Below the pieces are notes generated by a model. That model did no database searches and was not told the DNA's origin. It saw only the letters and a program-made list of their open reading frames with translations. From Gemmatimonadota bacterium (GTDB taxonomy: Bacteria; Gemmatimonadota; Gemmatimonadetes; Gemmatimonadales; Gemmatimonadaceae): a stretch of DNA of 64,000 nucleotides. The stretch covers positions 1-64,000 of the forward strand of contig JAPLKU010000010.1 of NCBI GenBank assembly GCA_026387935.1, given 5' to 3'. Below, piece by piece: positions 1,138 through 55,322 of this stretch (its first letter is position 1; each line of letters starts with the position of its first letter). Position numbers and translations under genes: made by a program.

Positions 1138-3603
1138 TCAGCGGCCCGGCGAGCGGAGTAGCTGGCCGAGCGCGTCGAACGCGGCGCCAAACGCGATCCA
1201 GTCACCGCGACGCATGGCATCGCTCATGCGGCGGTGCGCGGCTGTTACCGCCGCCCGGAATGCGCCGTCGCCACGGTCCATGCGCCTCGCGGCGCCTCCG
1301 ATTGTCTCCGAGAGCCTCGCGCCCGCCCGCGCCACGCCGGCGAAGTCCGTACTGACGCCGGTGAGCACCGGTCCCGACTCAGCGGCCCACTCGTAATGAG
1401 CCTGCGCGTAGAGCAGTTCTCCGTCGACGGGGATGACGAGCACCCGCCCTCGCCTTGGATTTCGTCGTTGCTGGCCAAAGCCGGCGCTGTCGGCCGTCCG
1501 TTGAAGGCGGTCAAGGACATCGCTCCAGCGGACCAGTCGTTGCGTCGCCCGCCATATCGTGTGCGCCATCGGTCCGCCCGTGCTCGTGACCGATCCGATC
1601 ACCGCCCCGGACGCATCAACGACTGGCACCGTCCACGCGAGGCCGGACGGAGTGCCCGGCGCCGCGTAGAGCGTCGGTGGCCCGTCGGCGAGATCTGCAT
1701 CGGCGTTGTCCACTCCAATCGAGCTCCTCGACGCCGCGCGCGGCACAGGCTCCACGCCCGTCCGCACGAACGCCGTTGCCTGAATCGAGGCCCAATCCAC
1801 CGGTGGCGGCCGAAGTTGCATCAAGGCCGCCGGCGCATTCGCTGGCCGAACAAAAAGCGCGGGGAACCGCCGCATCCAGGTTCGCATGATGGCGTCAGGT
1901 TCGGCGCTCGCCACGAGGGTGACACGGCCGGTCTGCGCGCTGACGAATGCCGTCGCGGCGTGGTGGACGTAGGCACGCGCGGCCCCGGCAAAGAGCAGTC
2001 GTTCAGAGAGCGGATAGGTCGCCGTGGTCGAATACAGTTCCACCGACCAGAAGAGCGAGTCGCCTCGGACGATGGGCGCGAGCGTTGGTCCGAGCGTGAG
2101 GAAAGGCACGAGCGTGGCGAGTCGCTCGCGCACATCGCGGTGAAACACAATGCGCGGCCGCAGCGGCCGATCAGCGGTCGCGAGAAGACGAGGCGCCCGC
2201 AGGTTCCACGCATGCGCGACCCGCTCGACCAGTGATTGGTATGGCGGCGCAGGAATATGGCCCCCGGTATCGGACACGACGACAAATCCCGTCGCGCCGT
2301 CAAATACGAGCGGTTGCTCCCAGGCTAGCAGTGCCGACGACGGAGGCGGTGGCGCCAAGGCCGCTAGTACGCGTCCACGTTCATCGGTCGCGGTGGCATC
2401 AATCCGTTCGCCTGCCCAGTGCGCGGCGTCGCCCGAGCGTGGTCCAACCACGACGATGGCTTCGAGTGCCGGTGCCGCGATCCACGCCAGCTCCGCCGCC
2501 GGGCTTCCTTCGCGCGGGCCAGCCGCTGTGCGGAGCAATGCGGCCGGATCCCATGTCGGCGCCCCGAGCGCGAACGGGGCGAGCGAGGCGAACGAAGCGT
2601 GCGCTGTGCTTTGTGCCGCTGCCGTGTCCAGCTTAATGGCGTCAACGCCGAAGGCGCGTCGCGTATAAAGCCGCCGCGTAATCGCGAAAGGCCGGTCTTC
2701 CTCGCGGAGCTCAGCCTCCGAAAGCGACCGCTGGGCCAGCATCGGAAGTGCGGCTGAGAGCACAGGACTTCCGACGCACGCAAGGAGCGCCGCGAACGCC
2801 GCAATTCGCGCATACCCGTGCCAGCCGGCCCAGAACACCAGAAATGCGGACATCCCCGACAGCACAGCTGTCCAAGCCGTCAGTGTCAATCCTACGCGAA
2901 ATCCGTACGCGCCAAATGGCTGCGCCGCGTCGGCGCCTATAGATGTCATCGAGAGGCCGTCGAGCCGCGCTCCCCATGCCAGTAACAGCAGGCCGACCGC
3001 GGCGAGCGTCGATAAGTGTCGGCGGCAGTACGCCGAGACATACACGCCGCCGCGGTGCAACCGCAGGCTCGGCGTCAGTGCGTAGAGCGCCACGATCAGG
3101 ACGCCGACGACGACCATGACGCGTGTGGCCCACGCGTGTAATTCCAGTTCGAAAGGCAACCACGCCACGACGTACGAGATGTCGCGATCGAGGTACGGGT
3201 CCATTTCGCGGAAGGGCTGTGCGATGCGGGCCAGCGCGAAGGTTGTCCAGTCCCCTGCGGGGGCGGCGAGTACGACGCCGAGTATCGTCGATACGATCAG
3301 AACAGCCGCCAGCAAGACCGGCCCTGGAATCGCCTCGCCGATTTCGAGATTGCCCAAGCGCCGCGGCAGCACCAGCGAGAGGATCGACCGCCGAAGCGCG
3401 TAGAAATTCAGGAAAGAAAAGGTGAATGCGGTGAGTCCGGCCCCGCTCCACCATGCGGCCTGGTGCGCGAGCTGGCTGCGGTAGACCGCAAGCGCACCAA
3501 GCGCGTCGAACCAATGCCAATCCGCATACACCATCGACGCCCATCGCCCCAGCAGCAGCGTAAGGGCGACGGCCAGCAGGAGTACAGCACTCCAGCGTCG
3601 CAT
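1138..3603 (-). CDS. UPF0182 family large membrane protein
   Basis: An 821-residue protein of the UPF0182 (COG1615) family, whose function is unknown. The N-terminal third holds about seven hydrophobic segments (the first near residues 4-22). The family-typical stretch around SLSEAELREEDRPFAITR and YTRRAFGVD follows, and then a long, probably extracytoplasmic region of about 500 residues. The frame is open further upstream, but that would overlap the phosphomannomutase gene. ATG 3603 (MRRWSAVLLLAVAL) falls 11 nt after that gene's stop and places a membrane segment at the N-terminus, so I chose it. The protein is somewhat shorter than the 900 or more residues common in actinobacterial members. 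Family assignment rests on motif recognition; no activity is proposed. Confidence 0.82.
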   Translation of the reverse strand: MRRWSAVLLLAVALTLLLGRWASMVYADWHWFDALGALAVYRSQLAHQAAWWSGAGLTAFTFSFLNFYALRRSILSLVLPRRLGNLEIGEAIPGPVLLAAVLIVSTILGVVLAAPAGDWTTFALARIAQPFREMDPYLDRDISYVVAWLPFELELHAWATRVMVVVGVLIVALYALTPSLRLHRGGVYVSAYCRRHLSTLAAVGLLLLAWGARLDGLSMTSIGADAAQPFGAYGFRVGLTLTAWTAVLSGMSAFLVFWAGWHGYARIAAFAALLACVGSPVLSAALPMLAQRSLSEAELREEDRPFAITRRLYTRRAFGVDAIKLDTAAAQSTAHASFASLAPFALGAPTWDPAALLRTAAGPREGSPAAELAWIAAPALEAIVVVGPRSGDAAHWAGERIDATATDERGRVLAALAPPPPSSALLAWEQPLVFDGATGFVVVSDTGGHIPAPPYQSLVERVAHAWNLRAPRLLATADRPLRPRIVFHRDVRERLATLVPFLTLGPTLAPIVRGDSLFWSVELYSTTATYPLSERLLFAGAARAYVHHAATAFVSAQTGRVTLVASAEPDAIMRTWMRRFPALFVRPANAPAALMQLRPPPVDWASIQATAFVRTGVEPVPRAASRSSIGVDNADADLADGPPTLYAAPGTPSGLAWTVPVVDASGAVIGSVTSTGGPMAHTIWRATQRLVRWSDVLDRLQRTADSAGFGQQRRNPRRGRVLVIPVDGELLYAQAHYEWAAESGPVLTGVSTDFAGVARAGARLSETIGGAARRMDRGDGAFRAAVTAAHRRMSDAMRRGDWIAFGAAFDALGQLLRSPGR

Positions 3604-52065: not shown

Positions 52066-53235
52066 CTACTTCGCCGACTCGCGGTACCACGACTCGGCAG
52101 CCGCAACGCCGCTCCCGGGTGTCACCGCGATTCCGGCGTCATTGAGGGTCATCTCGGTGCCCGCCAGCGCGCCGAGCACCATGAGCTCATTGAGGTCGCC
52201 GAGATGGCCGATGCGAAAGGCTTTGCCACGCAAAGGGCCGAGTCCAGCCCCAAGGGCAAGGTTGTACTTCTTGAACGCGATGTCACGAACCACTTCGGCA
52301 TCGCCACCCGACGGCACGAGGATTGCCGTGACCGTGTCGGACTGCGTGGACGCGTCCTTGGCGCAGACATCCAGCTTCCAAGCTTGCACCGCGCGCCTGA
52401 CGCCCTCACCGAGTCGCTTGTGGCGCGCCGCGACGTTTGGCATTCCCTCGCCAAGCAGCATGTCGAGCGACTCGCGCAGTCCGTACATGTGTGCGAGCGA
52501 CGGCGTGTACGGGAAGTAGCCATTCGCGTTGTGCGTGATGTGGTCGCGCAAATCAAAGTAGGCGCGCGGGCAGGTCGCCGTGGCCACCGCCGCGAGTCCC
52601 TTCGGTCCCACGCAGAGGATGCCGAGACCGGCCGGCATCATGAATCCCTTTTGCGATCCGGCAATGGCAAAGTCCACGCCCCACTCGTCGAGGCGAAAGT
52701 CGAGGCTGCCAACCGAGCTGACGCCGTCAACAAGCAGCAGCGCGTTGTGCTTCGCACGGTCCATCGCTGCACGAACAGCGGCGATGTCACTCGTCACACC
52801 AGTGGCCGTCTCGTTGTGTACGACGAGCACGGCCTTGATCGCCCCCGCCTTGTCTGCGGCGAGCCGTTCACCGATTACCGCTGCGGGAACGGCGCCACCC
52901 CATTCCACTTCAATGACATCTACCTGCATGCCCAAGCGCTGGGCCGCGTCGATGAAGAGCTGGCTAAACATGCCGTTGCGTACGGCAAGCACCCGGTCAC
53001 CGGGCGAGAGCGAGTTGACGATGGCTGTTTCCCACATGGCCGTGCCGGACGCAGGCAGGATAAAGGCCTGACCTTTGGTCGTGCCGAACACTTTCGTCAG
53101 GTCGCCGAGGATTCCCTTGGTCAGCGCGGGAAACGCGGATGACCGGTGGTCCTCCTGCGCGCGATGCATCGCGCGGAGCACGCGGTCGGGAACGTTGGTC
53201 GGTCCGGGAACGAAGAGGAAGTTGCGACCTGGCAT
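52066..53235 (-). CDS. Class V aminotransferase (serine/alanine-glyoxylate type)
   Basis: A 389-residue PLP enzyme. [20 protein letters not shown] is the characteristic start, [14 protein letters not shown] binds the cofactor phosphate, and the Schiff-base Lys is at about 196 in [10 protein letters not shown]. The closest functional group is serine-glyoxylate or alanine-glyoxylate aminotransferase; the donor cannot be decided from sequence. ATG 53235 was chosen because the open frame upstream to 53412 lies within the next aminotransferase. Confidence 0.9.
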
Positions 53236-53269: not shown

Positions 53270-54430
53270 TCAGACCAACTGTTTGAGCTTGGCCAGTTTT
53301 TCCACTGCCTTTTCGAGCGTGGCTTTCTGCTTACAAAACGCAAAGCGCGTGTATTTCTTTCCCGCCGGCGCACCCGGGCGGTAGAAGCTAGAGCCCGGAA
53401 CGGTGGCGACACCGATCTCTCGCGTCATCCACTTCGCAAAGGTGACATCGTCGTCTTTGCTGATCGCGGAAAAGTCGGCGAAGAAGTAGTACGCCCCTGC
53501 AGGCGTTGCGAACGTGAAACCCGCATCACGAAGCGGTCCGGCGAGATAGTCGCGTCGATCGCGGTAATCCTTCGCGAGCTGCTTGTAGTACGAATCAGGA
53601 TAGGCGTACCCAATGGCCGCCGCTTCCATGAGCGGTGCCGGTGCGCCCACAGTGAGGAAATCGTGAACCTTTCGAATCGCGACCGACATCTCTGGCGGCG
53701 CGATGGCATAGCCCAGTCGCCAGCCGGTGATGCTGAAGGTCTTCGAGAGGCTCGAGATCGTGACCGTCCGCTCCGCCATTCCGGGCAATGTGGCCATCGG
53801 AATGTGCTCGCCCTCGAACAGGATGTACTCGTAGGGATCGTCGGTGATCACGAGCAGGTCGTGCTCGATGGCAATCGCCGCGATAGCCTCCAATTCCGAA
53901 CGCGAGAACACGTGGCCACTTGGATTGTGGGGCGAATTCACGACGATGGCGCGTGTCTTCGGCGTCACCGCCTTCTTCAGCAGGTCTGCATCAAAGTGCC
54001 AGTCCGGCTCGACGAGCGGAACGAACACGGGCTTCGCCTCGCAGAGGATCGCGTCGGGTCCGTAGTTCTCATAGAACGGCTCGAAGATGATGACTTCGTC
54101 GCCGGGGTTGAACAGTGCGAGGAAGACCGATGCCGTCGCTTCCGTGGCGCCGCAGGCAACGGTGATCTGCGTCTCCGGATCAACGGTCATCCCATACCCA
54201 CGCTGGTACTTGTCGGCAATGGCGTTGCGGAGCTTTTTTGAGCCCCACGTGATCGCGTATTGATTGAGGTCATCGCGGATGGCGGCGATCGCCGCCTCCT
54301 TCATCGACTCCGGCATCGGGAAGTCCGGAAATCCCTGGGAGAGATTCACGGCGCCGTACTGGTTGGCGACGCGCGTCATCTCACGGATGACCGACTCAGA
54401 AAAGCTCTGGGTCCGGCGGGCGTTTGTCAT
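53270..54430 (-). CDS. Class I aminotransferase (kynurenine/methionine aminotransferase-like)
   Basis: A 386-residue PLP enzyme. FSESVIREMTRVANQYGAVN followed by LSQGFPDFPMP is the start typical of KAT/YbdL-type enzymes. NSPHNPSGHVFSR holds the phosphate-side Asn and the Schiff-base Lys is at about 230 in SSLSKTFSITGWRLG. The family N-terminus supports ATG 54430. That ATG is only 3 nt beyond the 3' end of tRNA-Leu on the same strand, so its mRNA must arise from the tRNA precursor or from inside the tRNA gene. Confidence 0.92.
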   Translation of the reverse strand: MTNARRTQSFSESVIREMTRVANQYGAVNLSQGFPDFPMPESMKEAAIAAIRDDLNQYAITWGSKKLRNAIADKYQRGYGMTVDPETQITVACGATEATASVFLALFNPGDEVIIFEPFYENYGPDAILCEAKPVFVPLVEPDWHFDADLLKKAVTPKTRAIVVNSPHNPSGHVFSRSELEAIAAIAIEHDLLVITDDPYEYILFEGEHIPMATLPGMAERTVTISSLSKTFSITGWRLGYAIAPPEMSVAIRKVHDFLTVGAPAPLMEAAAIGYAYPDSYYKQLAKDYRDRRDYLAGPLRDAGFTFATPAGAYYFFADFSAISKDDDVTFAKWMTREIGVATVPGSSFYRPGAPAGKKYTRFAFCKQKATLEKAVEKLAKLKQLV

Positions 54431-54433
54431 AAG

Positions 54434-54519
54434 TACCTAGGGCGGGAATCGAACCCGCAAGGCCCGTAAGGACCGGGGGATTTTGAGTCCCCTGCGTCTG
54501 CCAGTTCCGCCACCCAGGT
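54434..54519 (-). tRNA. tRNA-Leu (anticodon CAA)
   Basis: Read on the minus strand, the 7-bp acceptor ACCTGGG/CCTAGGT has one G-T pair and discriminator A. The D-arm begins TGGCGGAACTGGCAGACGC. The anticodon loop CTCAAAA gives CAA. A long variable arm (CGGTCCTTACGGGCC) and the T-arm GCGGGTTCGATTCCCGC follow. It is class II, as expected for Leu. CCA is not encoded; CTT follows the discriminator, then the ATG of the aminotransferase. Confidence 0.95.
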
Positions 54520-54563: not shown

Positions 54564-54596
54564 GCGCCGCCGCCAGCAAGAAACTAGCGGCGGCGC
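54564..54596 (-). terminator. Probable terminator of the sigma/anti-sigma/Spy cassette
   Basis: A perfect 10-bp GC stem (54564-54573 with 54587-54596) with a 13-nt loop. On the minus strand it is followed by TCTGGTTGTTTTT. It lies 33 nt after the Spy-like stop and upstream of tRNA-Leu. Confidence 0.75.
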
Positions 54597-54629
54597 ACCT
54601 ACTGAGCCAGCTACTGACCTAGCGCGGAG

Positions 54630-55322
54630 CTACCGGACTTCCGGTGGGACTTTTCTGGGCAACGGACGCCGATTCGGATCGTCGGCTCCGCTGACCGGCG
54701 GCCGGCCACCCATCACGTCGCCATCCGGCGGCGGGCCATTGGGCCGCATCCGTCCCCGCCCGCCTGGACCGCCGCCTGGACCGCCGCCTGGACCCATCCG
54801 GCCGCCTTCACCACCTTGGGCGCGCATCTGCTCAACTCGGCGACGGAGCTGCTCTTCGAGGCCGAAGTAGCGGGCGCGCTGCATGGGTGTCAGGAACGTT
54901 GCCAGTTCCTTTTGCTCTGACTCCATCAGTTCGATACGCTGGCGCTGCGACTTGACCATCCGGTCCATGAGGTCACCCACCTGCTTCTGGCGGGTGGAGT
55001 CGCCGGAAATCATTTCATCGCGGAGCGACATCCGGATATCGCGCTCCTGTTCCATGAGCATGCGACGTCGGTCAGCAAACTTCTCGTTGGTCTGCCGCAA
55101 CTTGTCGGCCTGCGCATCGTTGAGACCCAACTGGCGGCGCGCCATCTGGCCGATGCGGTCACGAACCTGGCCTTCGAGCGCGGCACGGTTCTGCATCGCG
55201 GAGTCGGGGCGCGGCTGGCCGGCCGCACTGCCCCTCCGGCCTGGACGATTCGGGTTGCCCTGTGCACCCGCGACACTCGTCGAAGCGACCAACAGCGCGG
55301 TGAGCACGATTCGGTTTGTCAT
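54630..55322 (-). CDS. Periplasmic Spy/CpxP-like protein with Gly/Pro-rich tail
   Basis: A 230-residue exported protein. It has a signal peptide (MTNRIVLTALLVASTSVAGAQ), an Arg/Gln-rich helical core (about 45-165) with two LxxxQ-like segments (GLNDAQADKLRQTNEKF, LTPMQRARYFGLEEQ) as in Spy/CpxP, and a disordered C-terminus rich in Gly, Pro and Arg. A 12-bp repeat CGCCTGGACCGC (three units, 54761-54796) encodes GGGPGGGPGG. The ATG overlaps the anti-sigma stop by 4 nt. A stress chaperone or sensor role is inferred from the operon; similarity to Spy is weak. Confidence 0.75.
   Translation of the reverse strand: MTNRIVLTALLVASTSVAGAQGNPNRPGRRGSAAGQPRPDSAMQNRAALEGQVRDRIGQMARRQLGLNDAQADKLRQTNEKFADRRRMLMEQERDIRMSLRDEMISGDSTRQKQVGDLMDRMVKSQRQRIELMESEQKELATFLTPMQRARYFGLEEQLRRRVEQMRAQGGEGGRMGPGGGPGGGPGGRGRMRPNGPPPDGDVMGGRPPVSGADDPNRRPLPRKVPPEVR

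Follow-up and report, generated by a model that had tools for sequence, protein, structure and literature searches.

In a window of 64,000 nucleotides of Gemmatimonadota DNA, which is the whole stretch that we analysed, a tRNA-Leu gene with the anticodon CAA (54434..54519, minus strand) lies directly ahead of a gene for a class I/II PLP-dependent aminotransferase of 386 aa (53270..54430, minus strand), and the spacer between the discriminator base and the start ATG at 54430 is the trinucleotide CTT (54431..54433, minus strand). This junction is not the result of chance; it recurs at 2-3 nt in six genomes that form one clade. Comparison of the sequences makes it likely, in our judgement, that a deletion placed an ancestrally leaderless gene under the tRNA promoter, and that an RNase Z cut would free the tRNA together with a message whose leader is 2-3 nt long.

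The tRNA was identified with ARAGORN and with the Rfam model RF00005 (50.1 bits); its acceptor stem is ACCTGGG/CCTAGGT and its discriminator is the A at 54434. Together with the ORF, these predictions agree with the initial annotation, which had read the discriminator, CTT and the ATG in this order on the minus strand and had judged the gap too short for a promoter or a Shine-Dalgarno (SD) sequence, as holds for the 3 nt found here and for the 2-3 nt of the clade. Leu(CAA) is represented by a single gene among the 50 tRNA genes of the genome, and it is the only one of the 50 in which the start of a conserved ORF lies this near the 3' end of the tRNA.

The match to the aminotransferase profile PF00155 (5.6e-63) spans the whole protein, whose best solved relative is 2o0r, Rv0858c (1.8e-91), with E. 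coli YbdL also among the nearest; no NCBIfam equivalog cut-off is reached, and the substrate is not assignable in that way. The in-frame codons that precede the ATG at 54430 are TAG GTA CTT, and this ATG is the only ATG, GTG or TTG start ahead of 54379. When codons 2-17 are compared among the six genomes that carry the junction, hereafter the fused genomes, 13 third positions vary versus three first and three second positions of the 16 codons. These codons are under purifying selection and are therefore translated, which places the start at 54430 and sustains the earlier choice of this ATG over the later one at 54379. The latter, the codon of Met18 (54377..54379, minus strand) that had been proposed as an alternative start, was rejected: it encodes a conserved Met of the family that is internal in almost every orthologue, whatever start the gene uses. 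An upstream start inside the tRNA was likewise discarded, given that the candidate TTG at codon -10 occurs in three fused genomes, while the other three are out of frame or stopped. A class V aminotransferase gene (52066..53235, minus strand) begins 34 nt past the stop codon of the first and possibly shares its transcript.

The genus is represented by 18 genomes. Of these, 17 contain a close orthologue of the aminotransferase, and in six of the 17 tRNA-Leu(CAA) lies 2-3 nt ahead of it, with the spacers CTT, CAT, CT, CTT, CCT and CT. The fused genomes represent six species of one clade of uncultured Gemmatimonadota (support 97/96), so that one change on the tree explains their distribution, and the 12 remaining genomes of the genus all lack the junction. 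When 288 genomes from the order were searched for the junction pattern, the six fused genomes and two unrelated matches came up. Within a second collection of 80 orthologues, only two had an upstream tRNA, and by their match values these correspond to G012 and G004, both from the fused clade.

The surroundings of the junction come from two conserved blocks. Upstream of the tRNA lies a group of ECF sigma, zf-HC2 and LTXXQ genes, which occupies this position across much of the genus and whose last member in the window is the LTXXQ-family gene (54630..55322, minus strand). Downstream of the aminotransferase, the class V aminotransferase, an isocitrate dehydrogenase family gene and an M17 aminopeptidase gene form a block that also recurs across the genus. 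The two blocks are apart in the unfused genomes; G011, which is unfused, has both on one contig and strand, with 22 kb from the tRNA to the enzyme. The synteny comparison with related genomes that the initial annotation had called for thus gives a clade-wide junction, shared by six species, and separate blocks in the relatives. This arrangement would be explained most simply if the common ancestor of the six species had undergone a deletion or a local rearrangement. We also observed, at the tRNA of the window and at tRNA-Leu(CAA) of L146-L150, that the acceptor stem differs between the two sets, being ACCYGGG (A1-U72) in the fused clade versus GCCGGGA (G1-C72) in the unfused genomes, with both arms changed together.

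The comparison with unfused relatives indicates what each gene lost on joining. In all ten unfused tRNA-Leu(CAA) loci examined, a terminator-like hairpin of 11-19 bp begins 1-13 nt past the tRNA, whereas the six fused tRNA genes have hairpins of at most 7 bp in the matching stretch and are thus without a terminator-like hairpin. The motif TANNNT stands 5-6 nt ahead of the aminotransferase ATG in 7 of 11 unfused orthologues versus none of the six fused ones; in a shuffle test the mean was 0.39 and none of 5000 shuffles reached 7, a figure that is indicative, since the genomes are related. With both the terminator-like hairpin of the tRNA and the gene's own -10 motif lost, read-through from the tRNA would be the natural supply of the mRNA.

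The position of TANNNT in the unfused orthologues is the signature layout of a leaderless promoter. This putative leaderless ancestry is not uniform, as the exact motif is missing in four unfused orthologues (G007, G008, G010 and G015). Among the conserved ORFs of the genus that were examined here, TANNNT at 4-8 nt precedes start-region ATGs about 9 times as often as internal ones, and for SD-like motifs the ratio is about 8; both modes of initiation therefore appear to be in use, and leaderless starts appear to be common in the genus. Maps of transcription start sites in P. acnes, in which many mRNAs are leaderless, also have TAnnnT as the commonest variant of the -10 element (PMC3848588). 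A separate observation concerns family F11 (L146, L147, L149-L151, L155 and L161), which has a strongly conserved promoter-like pair, TTTACA-17-TAACTT, about 12 nt before the ATG, and which its sequence marks as a strong candidate for a gene with a short leader in this genus.

The fused clade retains a conserved promoter-like element ahead of the tRNA, which would now serve both genes. The alignment suggests a putative -10 element, TAGTTT (54581..54586, minus strand), which appears as TAGYTT or TAAGTT in 16 of 16 aligned genomes, and, after an 18-nt spacer, a putative -35 element, CTGGCT (54605..54610, minus strand), with a YTGG-type element in this place, about 18 nt ahead of the -10, in most genomes of the genus. 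A scan with the standard consensus found no promoter, and the putative -35 is weak. Overlapping the putative -10, a 14-bp hairpin (54564..54596, minus strand) has a conserved loop, CTAGYTTC; the overlap is kept in most genomes of the genus, and within the genus exact matches to the core of the hairpin occur at the tRNA-Leu(CAA) locus only. It is probably the terminator of the upstream operon. A transcript arriving from upstream would form this hairpin, while in one initiated at the putative promoter the left arm would be missing. The element may be a terminator and a promoter interleaved, or an operator.

The sequence of events that we propose is as follows. A deletion or rearrangement in the ancestor of the six-species clade would have brought the 3' end of tRNA-Leu(CAA) up against the start codon of the aminotransferase, for which a leaderless promoter was probably already in use. 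Comparison with the unfused state shows that the terminator-like hairpin of the tRNA is gone, as is the promoter motif of the enzyme gene, and the aminotransferase transcript would now start at the tRNA promoter, a co-transcription that we strongly infer. Cleavage of the precursor would then follow at the discriminator; RNase Z is the most likely enzyme, since the CCA is not encoded, and the products would be the tRNA and a 5'-monophosphate mRNA with a leader of 2-3 nt, to be translated by recognition of the AUG at its 5' end without an SD sequence. The narrower reading, in which an obligatory leaderless mRNA is made by RNase Z maturation of a single-copy upstream tRNA, for a gene that was leaderless before the deletion, and which would amount to tRNA punctuation on a bacterial chromosome, seems to us slightly better than an even proposition.

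The absence of an encoded CCA in tRNA-Leu(CAA), which had been pointed out before, extends to all 50 tRNA genes; the genome has a CCA-adding type of nucleotidyltransferase, and it encodes RNase Z at G000:C18:91175-92068 (322 bits versus a cut-off of 293). An RNase Z cut past the discriminator would yield a 5'-phosphate mRNA, here starting with CUUAUG. RNase Z is inhibited by CCA, and the spacer of G004 begins with CC, close to CCA. When the cut mRNAs were folded in silico, the 5' end and the AUG were predicted to be unpaired in four of the six fused genomes; in G013 and G006 the prediction has the AUG partly paired. Ribosomes may read a message with 2-3 nt ahead of the AUG less efficiently than one that begins with the AUG itself. 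A long-range pairing between the 5' end of the tRNA and the coding region, seen in three predicted folds, was set aside, for unfused genomes conserve this coding sequence to the same degree.

It is unlikely, in our estimate, that the enzyme is instead translated from the uncut tRNA-mRNA, or after a cut by another nuclease, of the RNase E type or inside the tRNA, such that RNase Z would not produce the message. Precedents for other nucleases exist: the E. coli metY tRNA is reportedly excised by RNase III, for which other RNases can substitute (PMC6511841), and P. acnes, which has no obvious tRNase Z, uses a different nuclease to cut the 3' ends of its tRNAs (PMC3848588). Against this, the present genome does have RNase Z, and its tRNA genes uniformly leave the CCA to be added; translation of the uncut transcript would, moreover, probably be hindered by the folded acceptor stem 2-3 nt from the AUG, which would impede entry of the 30S subunit.

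We also regard as improbable a promoter located inside the tRNA gene, from which the aminotransferase would have an independent mRNA, with neither RNA processed from the other. Intragenic promoters are hard to rule out from sequence, and a precedent exists in E. coli, where the internal promoter of the metY-nusA-infB operon sits on the 3' side of the tRNA gene (PMC6511841). None of the six fused tRNA genes, however, has TANNNT at a usable distance, the only two matches both overlapping the ATG, and since the tRNA terminator has been lost, read-through RNA would be made anyway. The least probable alternative, and a very remote one, is that the aminotransferase was wholly or almost wholly silenced by the deletion, which left an adjacency without consequence for expression; one evolutionary event would be enough for it, and codon use revealed no functional connection of the enzyme with tRNA-Leu(CAA), but the gene is intact in six of six species and is under purifying selection, its first 17 codons included, long after the event.

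Nothing in the comparison points to a regulatory role specific to leucine. The initial annotation had suggested that the expression of an amino-acid enzyme would be tied to the maturation of a leucine tRNA; a meaningful tie of this kind was not supported, as the enzyme family is not leucine-specific and UUG usage is unremarkable. Feedback through UUG codons was also rejected, with 0-3 TTG codons in the fused orthologues versus 0-7 in the others and no signal. The arrangement of tRNA and enzyme looks like an accident of deletion that the lineage has tolerated.

In mitochondria, tRNAs punctuate polycistronic RNAs, from which they are excised, and the mRNAs are left with almost no leader; this is usually treated as an organelle feature. 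The junction described here resembles it in that the tRNA abuts the start codon and the AUG lies at most 3 nt from the predicted cut, which would be the 5' end of the mRNA. It differs in being a single junction on a bacterial chromosome and not a genome-wide system, in having a dedicated putative tRNA promoter, and in that processing is only predicted. The metY-nusA-infB operon (PMC6511841) likewise joins tRNA and protein genes in one transcript, as we infer here, from which the tRNA is excised, but that operon has its internal promoter P2, for which, as for an SD sequence, 2-3 nt leave no room. With actinobacterial leaderless mRNAs (PMC3848588, PMC4681348, PMC4633059) the predicted mRNA would share the lack of an SD sequence and a 5'-proximal start codon, and the unfused orthologues share the TANNNT -10 element near the start codon; in the actinobacterial case the 5' end comes from transcription initiation, while here it would come from tRNA 3' processing. 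The leaderless mRNAs made by MazF in E. coli, as they are cited in PMC3848588, also have their leader removed after transcription, but that cleavage is induced by a toxin and leaves 5'-hydroxyl ends, whereas constitutive tRNA maturation and a 5'-phosphate would be expected here.

We found no example of a bacterial leaderless mRNA produced by excision of a tRNA in the open-licence literature, whose silence proves little. One deletion, seen against relatives that retain the earlier state, suggests how tRNA punctuation could emerge in bacteria: a gene that can be translated without a leader outlives the loss of its promoter and leader once a tRNA has been dropped in front of it. The unfused relatives make the idea of the fusion directly testable.

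Some other tRNA loci deserve mention. Two tRNA genes of the same genome, tRNA-Ile(GAT) (G000:C17:55157-55230) and tRNA-Arg(TCG) (G000:C20:129622-129695), are followed by ORFs that start 20 and 34 nt downstream, respectively, behind a purine-rich stretch, and could possibly give further tRNA-mRNA transcripts, these with an SD sequence. A generic scan of the genus from T-loop to ATG gave mostly non-tRNA sequences among the matches listed; one more candidate among them for a tight junction, tRNA-Arg(CCT) at L246, was rejected in view of a plausible later start. Neither of the two unrelated matches in the order is a parallel junction. At L195 (G259, C38 near 155202), the ATG opens an ORF of 12 codons; the order there is tRNA-Leu(CAA), TTC, this short ORF and then an ORF that resembles the M17 aminopeptidase of the window. 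At L202 (G136, C26 near 3012-3073), the frame of the ATG differs from that of the likely gene. An ORF at this locus, whose N-terminus resembles that of a lipoprotein, appears to begin inside the 3' half of tRNA-Leu(CAA), so that a single transcript could yield either the tRNA or the mRNA but not both.
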